Made by a program: the position numbers and the translations under genes
Assembly (NCBI GenBank): GCA_021730945.1
Contig: JAKFYH010000014.1
Location: 1 to 33,119 of the forward strand
DNA length: 33,119 nucleotides
Direction of reading: 5' to 3'
Origin: Acidobacteriota bacterium
GTDB lineage: Bacteria; Acidobacteriota; Vicinamibacteria; Vicinamibacterales; UBA2999
Notes under the pieces: model-generated
What the model was told of the DNA's origin: nothing
What the model saw: only the letters and a program-made list of their open reading frames with translations
Databases searched by the model: none
Part shown: piece by piece, positions 20,561 to 31,759 of the stretch
Numbering within the stretch: position 1 is the first letter of the stretch
How the letters are laid out: every line of letters starts with the position of its first letter

Positions 20561-20630
20561 GGGTCTTGGGTCTTGGGTCCTGGGTCCTGGGTCCTGAGTC
20601 CTGGGTCCTGAGTCCTGGGTCCTGGGTCCT
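20561..20630 (-). repeat. Ten-unit heptamer array, sense unit CAGGACC
   Basis: Ten contiguous 7-base units read GGGTCCT, GAGTCCT or GGGTCTT on +, which is CAGGACC in phase on the transcribed minus strand. The array spans the entire dnaX-ybaB gap: the dnaX TAG (20629-20631) lies at one edge and the ybaB ATG (20557-20559) at the other. The periodicity is perfect, with only base substitutions between units. Confidence 0.92.
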
Positions 20631-22413
20631 AGCGCTCTTCAATCGTCGTCTTGTCGACCGGGAAGATCTCCAGCACGGCCTGCACCGTGGCATTCGCCAT
20701 CGCCTCCGCCTTCACGTCGTCCGGAGTTCCCGGCTTCGCGGCGGCAGACTGGCTCCGGGGCGCTGCCACCGGCGACCCCAGGGTACTCGGTGCCGGCGCA
20801 GCCGGCGCATCACCCTCGGCGACGACGATCGTAATCGGGACGGCGCGGCCCGCCACCTTCTCGGCGATCGTCGACAGCCAGGCCTTCTGATCGTCGCACT
20901 GCCCCTTCGCGTTCTTCTTGTTCGCCTGGAACGAAAAGACGATGCGGTCGGCGGACACGTCAATCGAATGGGCGGACGCCACTACCAAATTGTAGAACGT
21001 CGACTTTCCGGCCTTGATCTCACTGAGGAAAGCATCTTTGAGACCGCCGACGGGATCGGTGCCTAGGGTGCGTACGGTGCCGGGGGTGCCGGGGTTGGTG
21101 CCGGGTGCCGGTGCCGGTGCCGTCGTTGCCGGTGCCGCTGCTGGCGCCTTGGCACCCGGCGGTGGCACCTTAGGCACGGCCGGCGCACTGGGCACCGCCC
21201 CCCTTGGCACATTAGGCACTGTACGCACCCTAGGCACCTGTGCCTGTGGCTGTGCCTGTGGCTGTGCCTGTGGTGCCGCTCGTTCGGCAAGGCCAAGCAA
21301 TTCGCCGAGCGGGACGAGCTTGCGAAGATGCATCAACCTGAGGAGCCCCATCTCAAGGTTGTAGCGCGGCTGGTCCGAGACCCGAATCTCCTGCTCGGTC
21401 CTGGTCAGCAAGTCGAACGCGCGCAGCAGGTCTTCGCGCGACCACTGGCCGGCCATGGCGAGCAGGCGTTCGCGCTCGGCATCGGCGGCGACGTCGGGAT
21501 CGGACGCGCGCTTGGGATCGACCGACAGGATCAGCAGGTCGCGGGTGGCGCGCGCCAGTTCGCGGCACAGCAGCCGCAGGTCGTAGCCGCGCTCGATCGC
21601 GCGCTCGACCAGCGCGAACGCCGCCGCCGCATCCTCGCCCACCACGGCCTCGAGCATGTCGAACACCAGGTCGCGCCCAACCAGGCCGAGCACAGTGACC
21701 ACGTCTTCAACGGTGATCTCGTCGCCGGCGAACGCGCGCACCTGGTCGAAGGCGCTCAGCGAGTCGCGCATGCTGCCTTCGCCGGCCCGCGCCAGCAACA
21801 GCAGGCCGGCTTCGGGAATTTCGATCTTCTCTTCGCTGGCGATCAGGCGCAGCCGGTCGGCCACCACCTTGGCCGAGATGGTCCGGAACTCGTAGACCTG
21901 CGAGCGCGACAGCACGGTGTCGGGAATCTTGTGCTGCTCGGTCGTCGCCATCATGAAGATGACGTGCGGCGGCGGCTCCTCGATCGACTTCAGCAGGGCA
22001 TTGAACGACGAAGCCGACAGCATGTGGACTTCGTCGATGATGAAGACCTTGTAGCGGTTGCGGACCGGCGCGATCGACAGCCCCTCGACAATGACCTCGC
22101 GAACGTTATCGACGCCGGTATGGGTGGCGGCATCGATTTCCAGCACGTCGATGTCGCGGCCCTCGGCAATCTCGATACACGCGTCGCACACGCCGCACGG
22201 CTCCGGCGTCGGCCCCTTCGCGCAGCAGAGCGCGCGCGCGAGAATGCGGGCGGTGGTCGTCTTGCCGCAGCCGCGCGGGCCCGACAACACGAACGCCTGG
22301 GCAATGCGCTTGCTCTTCAGCGCATTCTTGAGGGTGCGGGTGACCGCCTGCTGCCCGAGCACATCCTCGAAGGTTTGCGGACGCCACTTGCGGGCGAGGA
22401 CTTGGTAGGCCAT
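20629..22413 (-). CDS. dnaX: DNA polymerase III subunit gamma/tau
   Basis: A 594-residue clamp-loader ATPase. Start ATG 22413 gives MAYQVLARKWRPQ; the frame is open further upstream into the SRP RNA gene. Walker A is GPRGCGKT (45-52), the zinc site is Cys64, Cys73, Cys76 and Cys79, Walker B is IIDEVHML (Asp127, Glu128), and the sensor/arginine-finger motif is SRS (169-171) instead of the usual SRC. Domain III follows to about 370, then a Pro/Ala/Gln-rich linker (about 375-465) with a repeated Q-A-Q-P pattern, then a tau-like C-terminal domain (about 470-594). No frameshift signal was recognised, so a separate gamma is not predicted. Confidence 0.96.
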   Translation of the reverse strand: MAYQVLARKWRPQTFEDVLGQQAVTRTLKNALKSKRIAQAFVLSGPRGCGKTTTARILARALCCAKGPTPEPCGVCDACIEIAEGRDIDVLEIDAATHTGVDNVREVIVEGLSIAPVRNRYKVFIIDEVHMLSASSFNALLKSIEEPPPHVIFMMATTEQHKIPDTVLSRSQVYEFRTISAKVVADRLRLIASEEKIEIPEAGLLLLARAGEGSMRDSLSAFDQVRAFAGDEITVEDVVTVLGLVGRDLVFDMLEAVVGEDAAAAFALVERAIERGYDLRLLCRELARATRDLLILSVDPKRASDPDVAADAERERLLAMAGQWSREDLLRAFDLLTRTEQEIRVSDQPRYNLEMGLLRLMHLRKLVPLGELLGLAERAAPQAQPQAQPQAQVPRVRTVPNVPRGAVPSAPAVPKVPPPGAKAPAAAPATTAPAPAPGTNPGTPGTVRTLGTDPVGGLKDAFLSEIKAGKSTFYNLVVASAHSIDVSADRIVFSFQANKKNAKGQCDDQKAWLSTIAEKVAGRAVPITIVVAEGDAPAAPAPSTLGSPVAAPRSQSAAAKPGTPDDVKAEAMANATVQAVLEIFPVDKTTIEER

Positions 22414-22429
22414 TTGAACAGGGAAACTC

Positions 22430-22527
22430 GGCCCGGAGGTCCAGAGCACATCACGGAAACGACTTAGCGCTGCTGCCTTCCGGCCCTGACGCGATTCGCC
22501 GCCCTGAGATTGCCGAGGTTCCGGGCC
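22430..22527 (-). ncRNA. ffs: Signal recognition particle RNA, small bacterial type
   Basis: The minus strand carries the universally conserved domain IV core GTCAGGGCCGGAAGGCAGCA (the GGAA tetraloop and the asymmetric loop bound by Ffh). The ends pair perfectly: GGCCCGGA at the 5' end (22527-22520) and TCCGGGCC at the 3' end (22437-22430), giving a 98-nt hairpin RNA. It lies 16 bp before the dnaX start, a synteny (scr/ffs-dnaX-ybaB-recR) known in other bacteria. Confidence 0.95.
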
Positions 22528-22767: not shown

Positions 22768-23817
22768 ATGCTCAGCCTGGCCGCGCACGTCATCGTCATT
22801 GATGACGAGCCACAGAACGTGCAGTTGCTGATCGCGACGCTCAATCGTGCCGGCTTCCATTCGGTCACCGGTATCACCGATGCGCGGTCCCTGCCGGGCC
22901 TGGTGATCTCGGAACCACCCGACCTGGTCATCACCGACCTGCACATGCCCGACTGCGATGGCTTTGGCGTGCTGGAGATCCTCTCGCCCCTGATCAACCA
23001 GGAGCGCCTGCCCGTGCTGATGGTCACCGGCGACGGCTCACGCGATGCGCGCCAGCGGGCGCTGACGCTCGGGGCAAAAGATTTCGTCACCAAGCCGTTC
23101 GACCTGGTCGAGGTCCTCTTGCGGGTCCGTAACCTGCTCGAGAGCCGCATGCTGTTCCAGGACCTGCGCAAGCAGAACCGGACGCTGCTCGAATCGGCCG
23201 TCGGCACCAATCGCGAACTGGAGTCGACCCGGCTGGAAATGATCGAACGGCTCGCGCTCGCCGCCGAGTACCGCGACGATGAGACCAACCAGCACAACCT
23301 GCGAGTGGGCGAACTGGCGGCCAAGCTGGCGCTACGAATCGGCATGACGCCGGAAGAGGCCGGGTTGCTCCGTCGCGCCGCGGCCTTGCACGACATCGGC
23401 AAGATTGGCGTGCCCGACGCGTTGTTGCGAAAAGCCGGCCCGCTCACCGAGGGCGAGCAGCGCGTCATGCGCACCCACACCAGTATCGGCGCCCGCATTC
23501 TCGGCGGCAGCCAGAGCCCGCTGCTGCAACTCGCCGAGAAGGTGGCCGAGTCGCACCACGAGCGCTACGACGGCAGCGGGTACCCGAAAGGCCTGGCCGG
23601 CGTCAGCATCCCGATCGCCGGCCGCATCGTCGCGGTCGCCGATGCCTTCGATGCGATCACCAACGATCGCCCTTACCGCAAGGGGCGAAGCGTCGACCAG
23701 GCCCTGCAGATTCTGCGCGAAGAGGCCGGCCGCCAATACGATGCGCGGTTGATCGATGCGCTGCTGGCGATCGTCGAGGCTCAGGTATCGAGCAACGCCG
23801 AGGCCAGCCTGGCATAG
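22768..23817 (+). CDS. Response regulator with HD-GYP phosphodiesterase domain
   Basis: A 349-residue two-domain regulator. The receiver domain (about 5-125) has the acidic pair Asp12-Asp13, phospho-acceptor Asp57 (VITDLHMPD), Thr87 and Lys109 (FVTKPFD). A coiled linker (about 130-170) joins the HD-GYP domain with His208-Asp209 (HDIGKIGVPD), His263-His264 and Gly271-Tyr272-Pro273 (HHERYDGSGYP). HD-GYP enzymes hydrolyse cyclic di-GMP, so a partner kinase probably controls c-di-GMP levels through it. No kinase gene is adjacent. ATG 22768 is preferred; ATG 22702 would add 22 residues. Its end overlaps the end of dapE by 37 bases, tail to tail. Confidence 0.93.
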   Translation: MLSLAAHVIVIDDEPQNVQLLIATLNRAGFHSVTGITDARSLPGLVISEPPDLVITDLHMPDCDGFGVLEILSPLINQERLPVLMVTGDGSRDARQRALTLGAKDFVTKPFDLVEVLLRVRNLLESRMLFQDLRKQNRTLLESAVGTNRELESTRLEMIERLALAAEYRDDETNQHNLRVGELAAKLALRIGMTPEEAGLLRRAAALHDIGKIGVPDALLRKAGPLTEGEQRVMRTHTSIGARILGGSQSPLLQLAEKVAESHHERYDGSGYPKGLAGVSIPIAGRIVAVADAFDAITNDRPYRKGRSVDQALQILREEAGRQYDARLIDALLAIVEAQVSSNAEASLA

Positions 23818-24782
23818 ATGTCGACGGCCTGATCGAGCTCGGCGATCGACACGTGCTCTCGGTCGGTGTGCGCCACGTGGATCGAGCCCGGGCCCAGCAG
23901 GAGCGGTGTGCCCCAGTTAGACAGGAACGGAATGTCGCTGAAATACGAGAACACGGCGGTCTCGAACCCCGCCACCGTATGCAGACGGCTCGCGGGCAGT
24001 TCCAGAATTTCTTCGACCGCCACTCGATCCTTCAGCGCCGCGGCCAGAGTCGCCCGGATCGGCGCGTGCTCGCCCACCGTGCGGAAGAACACCTCGGCTT
24101 CGGCACTGGGCGGAATCACGTTGGGTGCCACGCCGCCCTTGATCACACCCACCGTGTAGTGCGTCGTGCCCAGCAGGGGATCCGACGGCCAGTCGGCCGC
24201 GCGCAACGCCATCAGGCAATCCAGCAGCTTTTCGATCGCCGACTCGCCCAGCTCGGGATAGCCGGAGTGAGCGGCTTTGCCGGCCGCGGTCAGCCGCACG
24301 CGAAACGCGCCCCGGGTCGCCGCACCCAGCCGCAGGTCGGTGGGCTCGCCGTTGATCAGGTAGCGCGCCTTCGAGGCAATCTTGTTGGCCGCCTTGGCGC
24401 CGTCGCTGCCGCGCTCCTCGCCGGCCACGAACACCAGGCCAATGCGAGTCTCGCCGCCGGCGCGCAGCCGCTCGGCGGCCGCCACCTGCGCGGCAAGGAT
24501 GCCCTTGGCATCGCAGGCGCCGCGCCCGAACAGCAGGTCGCCCTCGATTCGGCTCGGAAAGAACGGCGGCACGCAATCGAAGTGGGTCGAGAACACCACT
24601 TCGGGTTCGCCGACGGCGGCGATCACGTTGGTGCGGCCGTGACCAAGCGGCTGCTCCAGCACCGAGTAGCCGCGGTCGCGCAAGTACTGCGCCAGCACGC
24701 TCGCCACCTGGCCCTCCTGGCCGGTGGTCGATTCGATGTCGATCAGCTGGCGCGCAAGAGAAACATGGTCTACCGGATCCAC
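23781..24782 (-). CDS. dapE: M20 deacylase, DapE/ArgE-like
   Basis: A 333-residue M20-family metallo-amidohydrolase. Metal and catalytic residues are in place: His67 and Asp69 (STHFDCVPP), Asp91 (GRGACDAKG), Glu122-Glu123 (AGEERGSDGA), Glu146 (NGEPTD) and His305 (HVAHTD). The start GTG 24782 overlaps the dapD stop by 13 bases, and no other start is available. As the last gene of an asd-lysC-dapB-dapA-dapD operon it most likely removes the succinyl group from N-succinyl-diaminopimelate. It is shorter than typical DapE (about 375), and by sequence it could also be an acetylornithine/acetyl-lysine deacetylase, so the gene symbol rests on context. Confidence 0.8.
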   Translation of the reverse strand: MDPVDHVSLARQLIDIESTTGQEGQVASVLAQYLRDRGYSVLEQPLGHGRTNVIAAVGEPEVVFSTHFDCVPPFFPSRIEGDLLFGRGACDAKGILAAQVAAAERLRAGGETRIGLVFVAGEERGSDGAKAANKIASKARYLINGEPTDLRLGAATRGAFRVRLTAAGKAAHSGYPELGESAIEKLLDCLMALRAADWPSDPLLGTTHYTVGVIKGGVAPNVIPPSAEAEVFFRTVGEHAPIRATLAAALKDRVAVEEILELPASRLHTVAGFETAVFSYFSDIPFLSNWGTPLLLGPGSIHVAHTDREHVSIAELDQAVDIYARLASALLDT

Positions 24783-25603
24783 TGTTCGAGTTCCGTTCTC
24801 GCATCGGTCTTGCCGTCGCGATACTTGACAATGACGGGGGTGGCAAGCGACAGGCCCCATTGCTGGCCGGCCCCAACCGTGACGGCACGCGCGCCTGGCA
24901 CCACCACCGCGCCTTCGGGAATGACCAGCGGATGCCCGGCCGATGGCTTGATGATCACGCCGTTGACCAGGTCGTAGACCGGCGTCGATCCGGTCAGGAT
25001 CGTGCCGGCGGCGATCACCGCGCGCTGCTTGATGACGGCGCCTTCGTAGATGCCGGTGTTGCCGCCCACCAGCACATCGTCTTCGACGATGACCGGGAGG
25101 GCGCCCACTGGTTCGAGCACGCCGCCAATCTGCGCGGCCGCGCTCACGTGAACCCGGGCGCCGATCTGCGCGCACGAACCAATCAGGGCGTGCGAATCGA
25201 CCAGGGTGCCCTCGCCGACGTAGGCGCCGATGTTGATGTACATGGGCGGGATGCAAATGACCCCGCGAGCCACGAACGCGCCGCCACGGATGGCCGAGCC
25301 GCCTGGGACAATGCGAATGCCGCCGGCGACTCCGGGGCTCTGCACCGTCTGGGTGTCCTTGTCGTAAAACGGCAGGCCGGCCGACATCTCCACCAGATCG
25401 CCAAAGCGAAAGCCGAGCAGGATGCCCTGCTTGACCCAGGTGTTGACCGACCACCCGGTCGGCGTCGACCAGTCGGGCTGCGCCGAACGCACCGTGCCCG
25501 CCTCGAGCGCTGCCCGCAACTGCTCGAAGGCCGCACGCGCGGCGGCCTTGTTGGCGCCCGCGCCGGCGGCGACCAGCGATTCAATGGTTTCCTGCAGCGT
25601 CAT
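24770..25603 (-). CDS. dapD: Tetrahydrodipicolinate N-succinyltransferase
   Basis: A 277-residue left-handed beta-helix transferase that adds succinyl to tetrahydrodipicolinate. The N-terminal helical domain (MTLQETIESLVAAGAGANKA) is followed by GWSVNTWVKQGILLGFRFG and hexapeptide repeats such as GAFVARGVICIPPMYINIGAYVGEGTLVDSHALIG, then VPGARAV near the C-terminus. ATG 25603 overlaps the dapA stop as ATGA. The presence of dapD with a DapE-like gene indicates the succinylase branch of lysine synthesis; dapC is not in the window. Confidence 0.95.
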   Translation of the reverse strand: MTLQETIESLVAAGAGANKAAARAAFEQLRAALEAGTVRSAQPDWSTPTGWSVNTWVKQGILLGFRFGDLVEMSAGLPFYDKDTQTVQSPGVAGGIRIVPGGSAIRGGAFVARGVICIPPMYINIGAYVGEGTLVDSHALIGSCAQIGARVHVSAAAQIGGVLEPVGALPVIVEDDVLVGGNTGIYEGAVIKQRAVIAAGTILTGSTPVYDLVNGVIIKPSAGHPLVIPEGAVVVPGARAVTVGAGQQWGLSLATPVIVKYRDGKTDARTELEQWIR

Positions 25604-26484
25604 AGGAACCCCAGTTCCTTCAGCCAGCCATTCATCTTCTCTTTCGACGCCGGCCGCGGCGACACCATCGGCAGCCGGTAGGCCTCTTCGCACAGCCCCA
25701 TCGCCGCCATGGCGTACTTCACCGGTCCGGGATTGGACTCGATGAAGTTGCCGAGCATGATCGGCACCAGGCGCTGGTGCAGCGTCCGCGCGGCGGCGTA
25801 GTCGCCCCGTTCGGCCGCTTCGACCAGCCGCGCCATCTCGGCTGGAATCGCATTGGACGCCACCGAGATCAGCCCGCGGCCGCCGATCGCCATCAACGAC
25901 AGCGTCATCGCATCGTCGCCTGACAGCACCAGGAAGTCGCCGGGCACGACGCGGCAGTATTCGACCATCTGGGTGATGTTGCCGGAGGCTTCCTTGACGC
26001 CGATCACATTGGGAATCGTGGCCAGGCGCGCGAGCGTGGGCGCGTCGATGTTGCAACCGGTGCGGCCGGGCACGTTATAGAGCATCACCGGCAACGGCGT
26101 CGCGCCGGCGACGGCGGAGAAATGCTGAAACAACCCCTCGGGGGTGGGCTTGTTGTACCAAGGCGTGACCTGCAGCAAACCCTGGACGCCGAGGCTGTGC
26201 ATGTCTTTCGACAACTGCACGGCGGCCCGGGTGTCGTTGTCGCCGGCGCCCGCCATCACGGGCACCTGCCCGTTGGCTTCTTCGAGCACCAACTCGACAA
26301 CGCGGCGCCGCTCGGCCGCCGACAGCGCCGGCGTCTCGCCGGTGGTGCCGCACGGCACCAGGAAGTGAATGCCGGCATCGATCTGCCGCCGCGCCAGGCG
26401 CCTGACCGCGGCTTCGTCGACCGCGCCGCTCTTGGTGAACGGCGTCACCAGCGCCGTCCCGACCCCCGTAAACTGCGTCCTCAT
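25600..26484 (-). CDS. dapA: 4-hydroxy-tetrahydrodipicolinate synthase
   Basis: A 294-residue TIM-barrel aldolase that condenses pyruvate with aspartate semialdehyde. The signature PCGTTGETP (44-52), the Tyr of LYNVPGRTG (Tyr136) and the Schiff-base lysine Lys164 (GVKEASGNI) are visible, and the length is typical. GAGG about eight bases before ATG 26484 is its ribosome binding site. It sits 73 bp after dapB, a gap that contains a 14-bp perfect inverted repeat, and is coupled to dapD. Confidence 0.97.
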   Translation of the reverse strand: MRTQFTGVGTALVTPFTKSGAVDEAAVRRLARRQIDAGIHFLVPCGTTGETPALSAAERRRVVELVLEEANGQVPVMAGAGDNDTRAAVQLSKDMHSLGVQGLLQVTPWYNKPTPEGLFQHFSAVAGATPLPVMLYNVPGRTGCNIDAPTLARLATIPNVIGVKEASGNITQMVEYCRVVPGDFLVLSGDDAMTLSLMAIGGRGLISVASNAIPAEMARLVEAAERGDYAAARTLHQRLVPIMLGNFIESNPGPVKYAMAAMGLCEEAYRLPMVSPRPASKEKMNGWLKELGFL

Positions 26485-26557: not shown

Positions 26558-27241
26558 CTATTCACTCAGCAGATCTCGAATCGAGAACCATCCGCGCCTT
26601 CCCACCAGCCACGCCGCGGCCGTGAGCGCTCCGCGGGCGAAGACCGCGCGGTCGCGCACCGTGTGCGTGAACTCAATCGTTTCCGAGGGGCCATCAAACC
26701 CGACGGTGTGTGTGCCCGGCACCGACCCGGCCCGCGTCGACGACACGTCGATCGGACGGGCGAAGCCTGCGCCCTCCATGCCTGCCTTGAGCGTGAGGGC
26801 GGTGCCCGACGGCGCGTCCTTCTTGAGGATGTGATGCGATTCGTGGATCCAGGCGCCGAACTCAGGGTGGTGGGCCAAATGGCGGCTCGCCTCTTCCACC
26901 GCCAGTTGGAACACGTTCATGCCGAGCGAGAAGTTCGACGCGGCGAGCACGCCGATGCCGGCGGCGGCAGCTGTCTGCTTCAGGTCGGCCTCGTACGCCT
27001 GCCACCCGGTGGTGCCAATCACCACGTTGATCTTGCGCGCGGCCAGTTGCGGCAGGTTGGCGACCACGGCGTCGGCCAGCGTGAAGTCGATGGCCACGTC
27101 CACCGGCCCGAAGTCGCCGTCGGCAATCGCGTGCGGGCCTGAGCGCTCGTCGATAACACCGGCCACGGTCGCCCCGTACGACGGCGCCAGCGACTCCACC
27201 AATTGGCCCATGCGGCCGTGTCCGAGCAGCAGGATGCGCAT
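26558..27241 (-). CDS. dapB: 4-hydroxy-tetrahydrodipicolinate reductase
   Basis: A 227-residue DapB. The nucleotide-binding start is ILLLGHGRMGQLVE, GTTGW marks the next conserved loop, and the substrate site is WIHESHHILKKDAPSGTALTL with the catalytic His-His and Lys. It is shorter than the E. coli enzyme (about 270), as is common in several phyla, with no sign of truncation. Its ATG overlaps the lysC stop by one base (TGATG), implying coupled translation. Confidence 0.95.
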   Translation of the reverse strand: MRILLLGHGRMGQLVESLAPSYGATVAGVIDERSGPHAIADGDFGPVDVAIDFTLADAVVANLPQLAARKINVVIGTTGWQAYEADLKQTAAAAGIGVLAASNFSLGMNVFQLAVEEASRHLAHHPEFGAWIHESHHILKKDAPSGTALTLKAGMEGAGFARPIDVSSTRAGSVPGTHTVGFDGPSETIEFTHTVRDRAVFARGALTAAAWLVGRRGWFSIRDLLSE

Positions 27242-28632
27242 CAGGCCCGCACCGGAGCGAAAAAGCGATCGTGCAGCCGGCCGAGCGCGGCGGGCAACTC
27301 GGCTTCGCTGACTACAAAGGTGATGTTCCGCCGCGACGCCGCCTGCGACACCATACGAATGGGCACGTCGCCCACCGAGCCGAGTACCTGCGAGGCCAGT
27401 GTCGGGTCGTCGTGCAGCCCGTCGCCCACCACGCAGATGATCGCCATGTCGTCCTGCCGCACCACCTCGGCAAACCCCGACAGCCCCTCGATGATGGCCG
27501 GCAGCCGCCGTGCATCGTCGATAGTCACCGACACGGTGACCTCCGAGGTAGTGACCACATCGACGGGGGTCTTGTGACGCTCGAACACTTCGAACAGGCG
27601 CCGCAAGAAGCCGTGCGCCATCAGCATGCGTGTCGAGGTGATGTCGACCACGGTCACGCCCTTCTTCGAGGCCACCGCAGTAAGCGGCCGTTCGCTTTTC
27701 GGCCGGGTCTCGGTAATCAGCGTCCCGCCCGCCTGCGCGCGGTGCGAGTTGAGGATCCGCACCGGGATGTTGCGCGCCACCGCCGGCTGGATGGTGGCCG
27801 GGTGCAGCACCTTGGCGCCGAAATACGCCAGCTCGGACGCCTCGGCAAATGACAGGTGCGGCACCACCTGTGGCGACTTCACGATGCGCGGATCGGCGGT
27901 CAGCATGCCGTCGACGTCGGTCCAGATCTGAATTTCGTCGGCGCCGAGGCAGGCGCCGATGATGGCCGCGGAGAAATCGGATCCACCGCGGCCGAGCGTG
28001 GTGGTGACGCCGCCGATGGTGGCGCCGACAAAGCCGCCAATCACCGGGATGCGTCCCGCCGCCAGCGCGGGGTCGGCATTGGCCATCAGGGCGCCGGTCG
28101 TTTCCTGGAACAGCGGAGCGGCGGCAGAGTGTTCGCCATCGGTGACCACTGCCTTGCGCGCGTCAACCCAGGCGCCTGGCAACTTGTACGCGGTCAGCGC
28201 GGCCGCCACGATCTGACTGCTCAGCACCTCGCCGGTGGCGGCGATTGTGTCGAGCCAGCGGGGCGAGACTTCCTGCAGCACGGCGAGGGCATGCACCACG
28301 CGCTCGAGTTCGTCGAATTCGCGGTTGAGCGAATCGACCACCGGCTGCCGCAGCGCGGCGTCATCGATCACTGCCGACACCGTCAGGTGGCGTTGCCGCA
28401 AGTCCTGCAGGCTGGTGCGCGCGCCTTCGACGTCGCCCGACCCCGCCAGCGCGGCCACGCCCAGCAGCCGGTCGGTGACGCCCGACAGCGCCGACACCAC
28501 GACGATGGGCCCGCGGGCATCGCCGCCTTCCTTCTGCGCCTCGGCCTGCCGTTCCGCCCGCACCAGCGCGATCAGCCGCTCAATCGCCGCGCGATCGGCC
28601 ACGGACGTGCCACCGAACTTCATCACCTTCAT
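27241..28632 (-). CDS. lysC: Aspartate kinase
   Basis: A 463-residue monofunctional aspartokinase, the first step of the aspartate family. It starts MKVMKFGGTSVAD, with the kinase motif KFGGTS, then GRGGSDFSAA and WTDVDGMLTADPR, and two C-terminal ACT domains (about 320-463) that would bind lysine and/or threonine for feedback inhibition (VTVVDITSTRML, and AIICVVGDGL). The gap to asd is filled by a heptamer array ending 11 bases before the start codon. Confidence 0.96.
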   Translation of the reverse strand: MKVMKFGGTSVADRAAIERLIALVRAERQAEAQKEGGDARGPIVVVSALSGVTDRLLGVAALAGSGDVEGARTSLQDLRQRHLTVSAVIDDAALRQPVVDSLNREFDELERVVHALAVLQEVSPRWLDTIAATGEVLSSQIVAAALTAYKLPGAWVDARKAVVTDGEHSAAAPLFQETTGALMANADPALAAGRIPVIGGFVGATIGGVTTTLGRGGSDFSAAIIGACLGADEIQIWTDVDGMLTADPRIVKSPQVVPHLSFAEASELAYFGAKVLHPATIQPAVARNIPVRILNSHRAQAGGTLITETRPKSERPLTAVASKKGVTVVDITSTRMLMAHGFLRRLFEVFERHKTPVDVVTTSEVTVSVTIDDARRLPAIIEGLSGFAEVVRQDDMAIICVVGDGLHDDPTLASQVLGSVGDVPIRMVSQAASRRNITFVVSEAELPAALGRLHDRFFAPVRA

Positions 28633-28643
28633 ATCAACTCACC

Positions 28644-28718
28644 GCACCTGGCACCTGGCACCCGGCACCTGGCACCAACCCTTTGGCACCCAAGGCACCC
28701 GCAAGCACCCAGCACCTA
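28644..28718 (-). repeat. Heptamer array between asd and lysC, sense unit CAGGTGC
   Basis: On the minus strand the units are mostly CAGGTGC or CGGGTGC (28644-28671 contiguous), then less regular copies up to the asd stop codon TAG at 28716-28718. The array fills nearly the whole 83-bp gap. The unit follows the same CAGG-plus-C pattern as the arrays at 10078, 20561 and 29782. Confidence 0.85.
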
Positions 28719-29753
28719 GAAAATCCCCTCCGCGTGCATCAACTCAGCGTTGAGGATGGCGGCGCCCGCGGCGCCTCTGACCGTATTGTGACCGAGCGCG
28801 ACAAACTTCGCCTGCATCACCGGGCAGGCGCGCAGCCGGCCGATGCTGATGGCCATGCCGCCGCCCAGGTCGGCGTCGAGCCGCGGCTGCGGCCGGTTGG
28901 GCTCGTCCATTAGGACGAGCGCCGGCTGCGGCGCGGTCGGCAGCTTCAGCTCCTGCGGCCGGCCGGCGAAGGTCCGGACGGCGTGGGCCAGGTCGGCGAT
29001 CGACGGCGTGGTCGCGAAATCCACCGACACGGTCATGGTGTGTCCGTCGATCACCGGCACGCGATTGGTGTGGGCGCTGACCGCTGCGACGTACGGCGTC
29101 CGCCCGCCATCACTGCCCAGAATCTTCAGTGTCTCGATCTCCATCTTCTCTTCTTCGCCGCCGATGAACGGGACGACGTTGCCGAGAATATCGAGTGACG
29201 GCACGCCTGGATACCCCGCGCCCGACACGGCCTGCATGGTCGACACCACGACCGAGCGGATGCCGAACTGGCGCATCGGCGCCAGCGCCATGGCCAGCAC
29301 CACGGTGGAGCAATTGGGATTGGTGACAATGGCGCCGGACCAGCCCTTGGCCGCGCGTTGTTCAGTGAGCAGCGACAGGTGATCGGCGTTGACCTCGGGA
29401 ATGAGCAGCGGCACCAGCGGATCCATGCGGAAGTTGCGGGCGTTACTCACCACGATGTGGCCGGCGGCGGCAAAGGCGCCTTCGATCTCGCCGGCGACCG
29501 ACGCGTCCAGACCCGAGAAGACGACCTTGGGACCGCGCCCCGGCGTGCAGGCCTCGACGATGCTGCTGGCAGATTCTTCGGGCATGGGCGTGGCCAGGCG
29601 CCACGGTGCCACCGACTTGTAAGCCTTGCCTTCGGAACGCTCGCTGGCGGCCAGCCAGGTCAGCCGGAACCACGGATGCCGCGCCAGCCGCGAGACGAAC
29701 TGCTGTCCGACCACTCCGGTCGCGCCCAACACGCCCACTTCAATCACGCTCAT
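28716..29753 (-). CDS. asd: Aspartate-semialdehyde dehydrogenase
   Basis: A 345-residue enzyme that reduces aspartyl phosphate to the semialdehyde. It begins MSVIEVGVLGATGVVGQQF (GxxGxxG NADP-binding), has VVSNARNFRMDPLVPLLIPE, the active-site Cys148 in VTNPNCST, and the later catalytic region VPVIDGHTMTVSV. These motifs match the archaeal/fungal-type branch rather than the E. coli-type branch. ATG 29753 is the family start; the frame is open 69 codons further, but that part crosses a terminator and a repeat array. It is the first structural gene of the lysine operon. Confidence 0.95.
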   Translation of the reverse strand: MSVIEVGVLGATGVVGQQFVSRLARHPWFRLTWLAASERSEGKAYKSVAPWRLATPMPEESASSIVEACTPGRGPKVVFSGLDASVAGEIEGAFAAAGHIVVSNARNFRMDPLVPLLIPEVNADHLSLLTEQRAAKGWSGAIVTNPNCSTVVLAMALAPMRQFGIRSVVVSTMQAVSGAGYPGVPSLDILGNVVPFIGGEEEKMEIETLKILGSDGGRTPYVAAVSAHTNRVPVIDGHTMTVSVDFATTPSIADLAHAVRTFAGRPQELKLPTAPQPALVLMDEPNRPQPRLDADLGGGMAISIGRLRACPVMQAKFVALGHNTVRGAAGAAILNAELMHAEGIF

Positions 29754-29781
29754 TGCTGTCCTCTGCGGCCTGGGAGTCCCG

Positions 29782-29823
29782 GGGTTTGGGGCCTGGGACT
29801 TGGGGCCTGGGGCCTGGGGCCCG
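29782..29823 (-). repeat. Heptamer array in the asd leader, sense unit CAGGCCC
   Basis: Six contiguous 7-base units (GGGCCTG and variants on +; CAGGCCC on the transcribed strand) lie between the leader terminator and the asd start. The unit is the same as that of the coding array at 10078-10126, almost 20 kb away. Confidence 0.85.
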
Positions 29824-29828
29824 GAAAC

Positions 29829-29861
29829 AAAAAAACCCGCCGGCGGTGAACCGCGGCGGGT
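29829..29861 (-). terminator. Intrinsic terminator in the asd leader
   Basis: On the minus strand ACCCGCCG (29861-29854) pairs with CGGCGGGT (29842-29835), with a small inner CGG/CCG pairing, followed directly by seven T (29835-29829, the first T shared with the stem). This is a strong rho-independent terminator placed about 80 bp before the asd start and about 135 bp after the probable transcription start. Confidence 0.85.
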
Positions 29862-29880
29862 GGCTGACGACCTCCTGAAC

Positions 29881-29900
29881 CTCTGGTAGTTCAGAACGAA
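29881..29900 (-). promoter_or_regulatory. Upstream hairpin of the asd leader
   Basis: CTGAAC and GTTCAG on the minus strand form a 6-bp stem with an 8-base loop (29873-29892 approximately) just before the terminator. The TGAAC arm could instead pair with GTTCA in the terminator loop, so the two structures may compete. This is a candidate pause or antiterminator element. Confidence 0.4.
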
Positions 29901-29901
29901 A

Positions 29902-29991
29902 TTACGAGCGTCCGCCCCTCGCGACACTGTTGGCCCACTTAGTGATGGCCCGCTTAGCACCGGTGTGCTTTCGCATGGAGGAGAACGTCAT
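29902..29991 (-). CDS. Possible 29-codon leader peptide of the lysine operon
   Basis: ATG 29991 to TAA 29902-29904 encodes 29 residues. Lys is at 8, 13 and 18, Thr at 2, 10 and 17, Trp at 19, and Arg at 7, 14, 25 and 28. The ATG lies 3-4 bases after the expected transcription start of the TATAAT promoter at 30003-30008, and no ribosome binding site precedes it, so it would be translated as a near-leaderless mRNA. Its position before a hairpin and terminator resembles amino-acid attenuation leaders, but the Lys and Thr codons are spaced rather than clustered. An inner ATG at codon 6 is an alternative start. Confidence 0.4.
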   Translation of the reverse strand: MTFSSMRKHTGAKRAITKWANSVARGGRS

Positions 29992-30002
29992 GGTCGGGAG
30001 CG

Positions 30003-30008
30003 ATTATA
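30003..30008 (-). promoter_or_regulatory. -10 box of the asd operon
   Basis: A perfect TATAAT on the minus strand, rare by chance in DNA this GC-rich. No good -35 box is found 16-18 bases upstream, so activation by a factor is possible. Transcription would start near 29995-29994. Confidence 0.55.
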
Positions 30009-30041
30009 CATCAGCCGATTGGGCGGGCGGGATCGGCCCAC

Positions 30042-30064
30042 ACTTCGCATTACAAAGTGCTTTG
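30042..30064. promoter_or_regulatory. Candidate operator of the winged-helix regulator
   Basis: ACTTCGCATTACAAAGT (30042-30058) is an imperfect palindrome with ACTT/AAGT ends. It overlaps CAAAGTGCTTTG (30053-30064), which has 5-bp arms. Both lie against the -35 box of the gene at 30101, whose partner gene encodes a winged-helix repressor-like protein. Binding here is inferred from position. Confidence 0.4.
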
Positions 30065-30090
30065 ACTACGTCGCCCATCCGCGATAGACT
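30062..30090 (+). promoter_or_regulatory. Promoter of the membrane protein/regulator pair
   Basis: TTGACT (30062-30067), a 17-bp spacer and TAGACT (30085-30090) form a good sigma-70-type promoter. The ATG at 30101 is 10 bases after the -10 box, so the mRNA would be leaderless or have a few bases of leader. Confidence 0.65.
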
Positions 30091-30100
30091 TGGGGGACTG

Positions 30101-30706
30101 ATGAATCCGGCGTCACGGCCAGACCCGTCTCCCGTCTCGCTCGGTGGCCATGCCGCCGACAACCTGTCGTTCATTCGCCAGGCGATGGAGCGCAGCGCCA
30201 CCTTTACCGCGGTGCCTGGGGTGGGCGGCTGCGTGATGGGCGCCATTGCCCTGATCGCCGCGCTGGTGGCCTCGTGGCAACCGACCGGCGACCGATGGCT
30301 GCTCACCTGGCTGACAGCCGCGGCCGTAGCGGCCGTGGTGGGGATTGGCGCCATGGCGCACAAGGCGCGGCGAGCCGGAGCCACCATCACCAGCGCCAAC
30401 GCGCGCCGGTTTGCGGCCGGCCTGGCGGCGCCGTTCATTGCCGGCGCGGCTATCACCTACCAACTGTGGGCGGTGCGGACGTTCACGGTGATGGCACCGG
30501 CGTGGCTGCTGCTCTACGGCGCCGGCCTGCTGACCGGCGGCATCTTCAGCGTGCCGGTGGTACGGGTCATTGGCGCCTTGTTCATGGTGCTCGGTATCGC
30601 GGCCATTGCCACGCCGCCGGGCTGGGGCAACCTCTGGCTGGCGGTGGGCTTCGGTGGCCTGCAACTGGGTTTTGGCGTTTACATAGCGAGGAATCACGGT
30701 GGCTAA
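30101..30706 (+). CDS. Polytopic membrane protein of unknown function
   Basis: A 201-residue protein from ATG 30101. A polar N-terminus (about 1-40) precedes about six hydrophobic helices, including GCVMGAIALIAALVASW, RWLLTWLTAAAVAAVVGIGA, FAAGLAAPFIAGAAITYQLW and a long Gly-rich C-terminal pair. The frame is open upstream to 29930, but the promoter at 30062-30090 fixes the start at 30101. It overlaps the next gene by eight bases. Pairing with a winged-helix regulator of the HTH_34 type is common in Acidobacteriota and suggests the two proteins act together, perhaps with the membrane protein modulating the regulator. No catalytic residues are recognised. Confidence 0.8.
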   Translation: MNPASRPDPSPVSLGGHAADNLSFIRQAMERSATFTAVPGVGGCVMGAIALIAALVASWQPTGDRWLLTWLTAAAVAAVVGIGAMAHKARRAGATITSANARRFAAGLAAPFIAGAAITYQLWAVRTFTVMAPAWLLLYGAGLLTGGIFSVPVVRVIGALFMVLGIAAIATPPGWGNLWLAVGFGGLQLGFGVYIARNHGG

Positions 30707-31669: not shown

Positions 31670-31759
31670 TGGCGGAGAGAAAGGGATTCGAACCCTTGGT
31701 ACAATTTCTTGTACACACGCTTTCCAAGCGTGCTCCTTCAACCACTCGGACATCTCTCC
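31670..31759 (-). tRNA. tRNA-Ser (anticodon GGA)
   Basis: The minus strand folds as a 90-nt class II tRNA. The acceptor is GGAGAGA (5' end at 31759) with TCTCTCC, discriminator G and encoded CCA (31670-31672). The anticodon stem-loop CGCTTGGAAAGCG reads GGA, the long variable arm is GTACAAGAAATTGTAC, and the T arm has GGTTCGAATCC. The long variable arm and the GGA anticodon identify serine. Confidence 0.97.

Follow-up and report, generated by a model that had tools for sequence, protein, structure and literature searches.

In the enterobacterial his, trp and thr leaders, codons for the amino acid that the operon produces are placed in a short open reading frame (ORF), and the leader RNA can fold into either an antiterminator or a terminator hairpin. 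For lysine synthesis, the textbook example of control is another device, the lysine riboswitch (L box; RF00168), which regulates the synthesis genes by premature termination. Here a leader is examined that stands ahead of an asd-lysC-dap operon of an Acidobacteriota bacterium (order Vicinamibacterales), within a stretch of 33,119 nucleotides that was analysed as a whole and is called the window below. Like the enterobacterial leaders, it has a short ORF with product codons ahead of the first gene, together with alternative antiterminator (predicted here) and terminator hairpins. It is unlike them in that Lys or Met would be sensed, in that the predicted 5′-untranslated region (5′-UTR) is very short or absent, in that few control codons lie among Arg codons with CGA before Lys, and in that it belongs to Acidobacteriota. 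From the lysine riboswitch it differs in that the aptamer is absent.

A leaderless leader ORF within an attenuator RNA is also described for trpL of Sinorhizobium meliloti (rnTrpL/peTrpL), which differs in having 14 codons, in serving a Trp operon (trpE) and in its alphaproteobacterial host, according to the available text of that report (PMC10117765). The same text presents SEP5 of Sinorhizobium, with six Thr and three Lys codons, as a suggested leader peptide; it is likewise a small ORF, located in the 5′-UTR of a gene that its authors link to Thr/Lys synthesis, yet the suggestion concerns a single genus and a site upstream of an aspartate dehydrogenase gene, and the account, in the part available, is without a terminator, alternative pairing or a codon change with the operon (PMC10117765). 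In the accessible portion of a 2010 survey, almost no attenuator predicted in Acidobacteria has an associated function, and leader peptides are given only for Proteobacteria, Actinobacteria and the survey's own hisS cases in bacilli (PMC2965389). Within the open-licence literature, in the portions available, no described or proven lysine leader-peptide attenuator was found and priority is not certain; as far as found, lysine would be a new specificity, and Acidobacteriota also a new phylum, for a known mechanism.

The original prediction, made from the window alone, read the region as an attenuator leader of the asd-lysC-dap operon, and the parts conserved in relatives support it. We propose a ribosome-mediated (leader-peptide) transcription attenuator that would sense charged tRNA-Lys, a reading to which we assign a probability of about 0.84; from comparison of sequences, such an attenuator is strongly supported for the leader family and, by homology, well supported for the window itself.

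The leader and its operon in the window

The operon behind the leader runs asd-lysC-dapB-dapA-dapD-dapE on the minus strand. The first controlled gene, asd (aspartate-semialdehyde dehydrogenase; 28716..29753), and lysC (aspartate kinase; 27241..28632) score above the cut-offs of NCBIfam NF006416/TIGR00978 and TIGR00657, respectively, and the nearest equivalog model of lysC is lysine-sensitive aspartokinase 3 (441.6 bits versus a cut-off of 455). The third gene, dapB (26558..27241), is just over the cut-off of TIGR00036 (124.6 versus 122), and dapA (25600..26484; TIGR00674) and dapD (24770..25603, approximate start; NF008808) are above theirs. The last gene (23781..24785, approximate start) encodes a dapE-family deacylase and was named dapE from its operon position, its best model (TIGR01910 DapE-ArgE, 135 bits) being under its cut-off.

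Ahead of asd, on the same strand, a TATAAT −10 box identified from the sequence (30003..30008) is followed by a leader ORF of 29 codons plus stop (29902..29991, stop at 29904-29902; peptide MTFSSMRKHTGAKRAITKWANSVARGGRS), a 6-bp hairpin CTGAAC/GTTCAG located 3′ of the stop codon (29875..29894) and an intrinsic terminator (29829..29861) that consists of strand 3 (29861-29851), a loop, strand 4 and a T-run (29835-29829). The terminator hairpin (29861-29835) has a folding energy of −20.6 kcal/mol and is followed by a run of seven T. These parts, including the three Lys and three Thr codons of the ORF, are all present as originally described. The distance from TATAAT to the leader ATG (29991) is 11 nt; transcription usually starts 6-8 nt below a −10 box, and a start at that distance would give a 5′-UTR of ~4-6 nt and a near-leaderless ORF. 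Within the ORF, the first putative control element is CGA-AAG (Arg7-Lys8; 29968..29973), a rare Arg codon followed by Lys, and the second is AAG-CGG (Lys13-Arg14; 29950..29955). A stretch within codons 23-27 (29911..29924), complementary to the terminator 5′ arm, forms the predicted antiterminator strand 2, and predicted strands 2 and 3 of the antiterminator flank the 6-bp hairpin; its stem is kept and its loop changed in the related genomes G001, G002, G003 and G008. The terminator loop GGTTCA had been considered as a pairing partner of CTGAAC and was rejected, as it is not kept in relatives.

The window leader RNA folds better than 200 of 200 dinucleotide shuffles (z −3.3). The promoter has no recognisable −35 element and the terminator stem is bulged, and a generic promoter/terminator scan of the window reported neither the leader TATAAT nor the terminator; a single sequence is thus no proof, and relatives were compared instead.

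A G+C-rich repeat array (~29819-29782) lies between the terminator and the asd start at 29753. The original prediction counted it among the parts ahead of asd; the array is present, but it is missing from close relatives (G008, G002 and G003) and was rejected as a part of the device. Short direct-repeat arrays near the leader were noted at 29782-29819 and ~20570-20690 of the window and in the asd upstream regions L017, L012 and L011, with units (CCCAGGCC, CAGAACCC, GCGAATAGC, GTCAAGAAGTGC and similar) that are different in each genome; they are possibly a fast-moving repeat class of Vicinamibacterales. A divergent plus-strand gene starts near the leader, its ORF spanning 29930-30706 and containing downstream ATGs at 29990 and 30101; GGAGGAGAA precedes the ATG at 29990, overlapping the leader ORF, and a promoter-like match is found near this gene at 30062-30090.

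The lysine riboswitch model RF00168 matched neither the window nor any of 161 order genomes, while the genome search, run with stricter filters at the cost of some weak matches, found it in 4 of 14 control genomes, which agrees with the earlier remark that no L box core was recognisable in the leader. The only Rfam models matched in the window at gathering score are those of a small SRP RNA and two tRNA genes (22428-22526, 2604-2675 and 31673-31759 (−)), and no T-box or other leader was among them. An E-value scan of 29740-30030 returned seven matches, all far below gathering. No known riboswitch model scores well, so that the covariance search does not refute the attenuator, and the lysine riboswitch and the other Rfam families were rejected as none of them matches the leader.

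Conservation of the layout in Vicinamibacterales

Of 162 order genomes, 108 gave an asd match at a threshold of E ≤ 1e-100. Eight of these were left unread (partial matches, or a start near a contig end), and 101 loci were taken from the other 100; G131 was left out, leaving a set of 100 asd upstream loci in 99 genomes. A short ORF (19-39 codons) plus terminator was found at 66 of the 100 loci, in 11 of the 15 families of the order, counts that are not independent across loci because the leaders share descent. The order of parts before asd in relatives is that of the window, and the terminator hairpin is located 19-54 nt 3′ of the ORF stop in all 66 leaders (two placed by hand). Comparison of asd upstream regions thus found leader and terminator conserved, and does not refute the original prediction. 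Start codons are ATG in 54 leaders and GTG in 12, and Lys codons occur in 62 (one mixed Thr/Met/Lys leader included). A −10 box was assigned in 58 leaders, 4-15 nt upstream of the start codon (39 of them at 9-11 nt) and reading TATACT or TATAAT in 41, although these promoter statistics, like the Lys enrichment given below, are partly circular because leaders were first selected by a K/R motif and a TATAAT-like box. The boxes were chosen by a script that needs a TAnnnT-like word near the start and favours TATAAT-like words. Most of the leader mRNAs with an assigned box would be leaderless or nearly so.

Several leaders were handled individually: two script picks, L086 and L116, were dropped, and L086 came back with a different ORF; L085 and L092 were entered by eye on account of their longer 5′-UTR, as were four Met leaders and the G092 leader (all discussed below), these without regard to 5′-UTR length. 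The circularity does not extend to a composition-free scan, the contrast between operons or the reversed-pattern control. The composition-free scan, which requires only a −10-like box, an ORF start 4-13 nt on and a terminator within 90 nt of the stop, recovered 47 of the 66 assigned leaders, with none at the 34 asd loci lacking an assigned leader and none at the 100 asd loci on the reverse strand. A nearly identical scan over a longer stretch yielded 0 of 28 leuA loci, 0 of 30 hom loci and 2 of 25 hisG loci; the scan is strict, since most His leaders visible by eye are missed.

The leader peptide itself was found in only 2 of 43 family genomes (the window's own and G008, 82% identity). Both Lys and Thr codons had been pointed out in the window ORF; the Lys codons are conserved, whereas the three Thr codons are unconserved in the genus, and Thr was rejected as the sensed residue there. 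Outside the main set, at least 80 asd loci belong to named genomes, 78 of which were examined (L138 and L164 are without a gene start). Leaders already known from the order are carried by 31 of the 78; the remaining 47, among them loci of order members that lack a leader and of other phyla, yielded no candidate with a near −10 box plus a K or Met motif. The original suggestion spoke of a control of lysine synthesis in this phylum; the range in which such leaders were seen is one order.

Among the 34 asd loci without a leader, 22 belong to families f13 and f14, where asd follows a different lysC within ~0.5 kb; at these loci (L197-L219) asd sits in another operon, downstream of that lysC, and the gene ahead of the lysC-asd pair resembles what we take to be a LOR/SDH-type protein. 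Upstream of this other lysC no leader was noticed by eye. In G044 and G051 asd lies behind a metY-like gene; G038, G090 and G096 have no dap gene behind asd within the 4-5 kb read (the G096 upstream region is partly masked); G050 carries its leader at lysC instead of asd; the G157 upstream region ends at a contig edge just beyond a terminator; and G047 is also without an assigned leader. An asd-lysC-dap operon without a recognisable leader was found only in G006, G007, G024 and G064. Upstream of asd in G007 (L008), promoter and terminator are kept and the ORF between them is lost; the −10 box directly adjoins what was the terminator hairpin, and the transcript would therefore have the hairpin at its 5′ end.

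Such an arrangement would suit a rival reading in which asd has its own promoter and the promoter, ORF and terminator upstream give a small transcript of their own, for a micropeptide or as a small RNA; this reading also draws on the strong terminator upstream of asd and on the rhizobial trp attenuator RNA, a dual-function small RNA in the available text of PMC10117765. It is, however, very unlikely, as the unit keeps to aspartate-pathway operons and, where the operon is divided, stands at lysC or dapB. A conserved micropeptide was rejected: across 14 equal-length f3 leaders, the differences by codon position number 846, 979 and 973, and third positions, which vary no more than the others, thus give no sign of a conserved protein.

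Control codons and operon content

Among 61 operons (asd- or lysC-first) in which one or more dap genes are visible, 57 have a leader with Lys codons, and six more such leaders precede asd-lysC where the fetched stretch or the contig ends. In G056, G079, G080, G097 and G103, which are among the 57, no lysC was found between asd and dapB. A different operon form is headed by asd in G098, G100 and G101 (f10) and in G088 (f4), with hom, metY and/or metX (genes of G101 named by NCBIfam models), three of these four operons also containing lysC. All four carry a Met leader without Lys, of which AAAMRMMAMRMTGIGGG is an example. Not counting the start, the four have 5, 5, 6 and 2 Met codons (two in G088), and their 119 residues together include 18 Met, 0 Lys and 12 Arg. 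Where the genes are arranged in other ways, G046 and G050 have Lys leaders at their lysC-dapB-dapA-dapD-dapE operons, and G092 has a second leader, of Lys type, at dapB-dapA, its asd-lysC leader being Thr/Met-rich with one Lys. Across these sequences, the identity of the putative control codon follows operon content.

A pattern search (−10 box, start, CGAAAGCGG) over 161 genomes returned 34 matches, versus 0 for the reversed pattern. Twenty-six of the 34 are leaders (asd 23, lysC 2, dapB 1); the eight elsewhere include three tRNA-Ser-like sequences (judged by eye) and three frame starts without a query gene. Since CGAAAGCGG is highly conserved in nucleotides, it might be an RNA site for a protein or metabolite and not codons. 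This we regard as extremely unlikely: the motif is in frame, single or doubled; ATG-CGA-ATG replaces it in three methionine operons, with CGA kept and AAG lost; leaders of the window's genus and of f12 vary the flanks and keep AAG; and no Rfam family matches.

The typical Lys leader peptide contains ...TRKRTGRKRATRVGG..., encoded by CGA AAG CGG. AAG-CGG is present in all seven leaders read from the window's genus, and the codon that follows Lys is most often CGG (65 of 145). In Lys-type leaders Lys makes up 145 of 1,631 residues (8.9%, versus 1.6% in eight window ORFs; partly circular, as explained above), and the commonest residue is Arg (303 of 1,631). This abundance, and the finding, in the available text of the source, that in the enterobacterial his leader translation is slowed by CGA codons alone (PMC4046918), would suit a leader that senses arginine or basic residues in general, with Arg-Lys-Arg slowing any ribosome and the device answering to Arg supply or to overall translation speed instead of lysine. 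That is an unlikely reading, because the residue that switches with the operon is Lys, replaced by Met, while Arg stays (12 of 119 residues in the Met leaders); moreover, arginine supply has no clear link to asd-lysC-dap, and lysC-first and dapB leaders retain Lys.

His-rich ORFs before hisG offer a further set in the same order. They were found at 24 of 25 loci (L267-L291) by one motif and at 25 of 25 by a looser one, the motif thresholds being without a chance control. The ORFs are near-leaderless where a −10 box was seen, and most are then followed by terminators, which were judged by eye; examples are MSGRPVVHTHHHHHVARGAGDGVRRR in G160 and MSLVHHAHRSHHHRSPKRPAGVCA in the window's genome (L268, G000:C8). 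They are probably His attenuators of Acidobacteriota. Upstream of hom in G123 (L330), the ORF MTQTRGTTATMMTPTVVMSITTTATPMRARHCRMM is followed by a terminator-like hairpin with a T-run, and lysC-asd is located further downstream on the hom contig; this ORF is a probable Thr/Met leader. In the leuA upstream regions no leader was seen.

Lys codons are few in many leaders when set against a classical attenuator, with one in 11 and two in 31 of 62. The Arg codon directly before Lys is strongly biased, being CGA in 75 of 83 cases, compared with 11 of 90 Arg codons directly after Lys, 16 of 130 of the remaining Arg codons and 9 of 289 in eight window ORFs. In three of the four Met leaders the last Met codon follows CGA, and the 25 His-rich ORFs have CGA at 3 of 74 Arg codons. 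The A-AAG within CGA-AAG could be a slippery site, an alternative to a slow-codon role for CGA; against it, CGA also stands before ATG, though in only three related genomes. For the his leader, Arg pairs with CGA strongly lose attenuation, which is read as slow translation in the available text (PMC4046918); the test system is Salmonella according to the accessible part of a sister paper (PMC11805395). It is tentatively suggested that CGA before Lys slows the ribosome ahead of a one- or two-codon sensor, making a slow-codon-primed sensor. If true, few codons would match the larger control-codon clusters of His leaders in the same order, and the design would be a distinct attenuator, for lysine in one operon form and for methionine in another.

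Predicted alternative pairing and the proposed mechanism

The part of the ORF that lies 3′ of the control codons shows complementarity to the terminator 5′ arm, which in most families, though not in the window's genus, exceeds that of shuffled or swapped partners; examples are ACCCGTGTCGG (codons for T-R-V-G) with CCGACACGGGT in f3 and TCGGCGGG (I-G-G) with CCCGCCGA in f10. The mean duplex energy of strands 2 and 3 is −18.9 kcal/mol for the leaders' own pairs, versus −14.7 for shuffled ORFs and −15.4 for partners from other families; the own duplex is stronger than the mean of its shuffles in 62 of the 66 leaders and stronger than the mean of its swaps in 57, and it falls within the best 5% of shuffles in 29. 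Family means favour own pairing in f2, f3, f8, f10 (G088, whose family is f4, was counted with f10 in this test), f12, f15 and the single f9 leader, and the preference is weak in f1b and f1c. The single f7 leader beats shuffles but not swaps, and the single f11 leader beats neither. For f1a, the group of the window's genus, the duplex (−18.1 kcal/mol) is no better than shuffles (−17.1) or swaps (−18.4), and for the window's own strand 2 (−17.5 kcal/mol) 23 of 100 shuffles are as good, which is not significant.

Pairing was also followed with a crude co-transcriptional model, in which the ribosome footprint is masked and the probability that strand 3 pairs with upstream RNA is calculated. Its mean is 0.78 when the ribosome stalls at the first control codon, 0.63 when it stalls at the last (0.53 for shuffles of this case) and 0.32 when it is at the stop, a drop to which the model itself contributes in part, since less RNA is free at that point. 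For the window leader the corresponding values (0.73, 0.67 and 0.68) are nearly equal, so that the crude model predicts no switch, and those for its neighbour G008 are 0.61, 0.72 and 0.02. The antiterminators predicted for 17 drawn leaders mostly enclose a small hairpin, which in the window is the 6-bp hairpin.

As a lysine-sensing leader-peptide attenuator, the device would operate as follows. Transcription would start just ahead of the leader ATG, and a ribosome would translate the leader without a Shine-Dalgarno site, close behind RNA polymerase. When lysine is short, it would stall at the AAG codons, typically in CGA-AAG-CGG, and strand 2 would pair with strand 3, the terminator 5′ arm, enclosing the small hairpin; the terminator would then be blocked and asd-lysC-dapBADE transcribed. 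When lysine is plentiful, the ribosome would reach the stop codon and disturb the antiterminator, and the terminator would then halt transcription ahead of asd. In this scheme we infer the start site, the translation, the stalling and the read-through, as well as the switch in the window's genus.

Within the order, leader peptides appear to be in use for Lys, Met and His alike, and the tracking of operon genes by the sensing codon would amount to a natural codon-swap experiment for the attenuation model. The leaders suggest how soil Acidobacteriota without a detected lysine riboswitch may control the lysine pathway, and the rare CGA codon gains a testable role.
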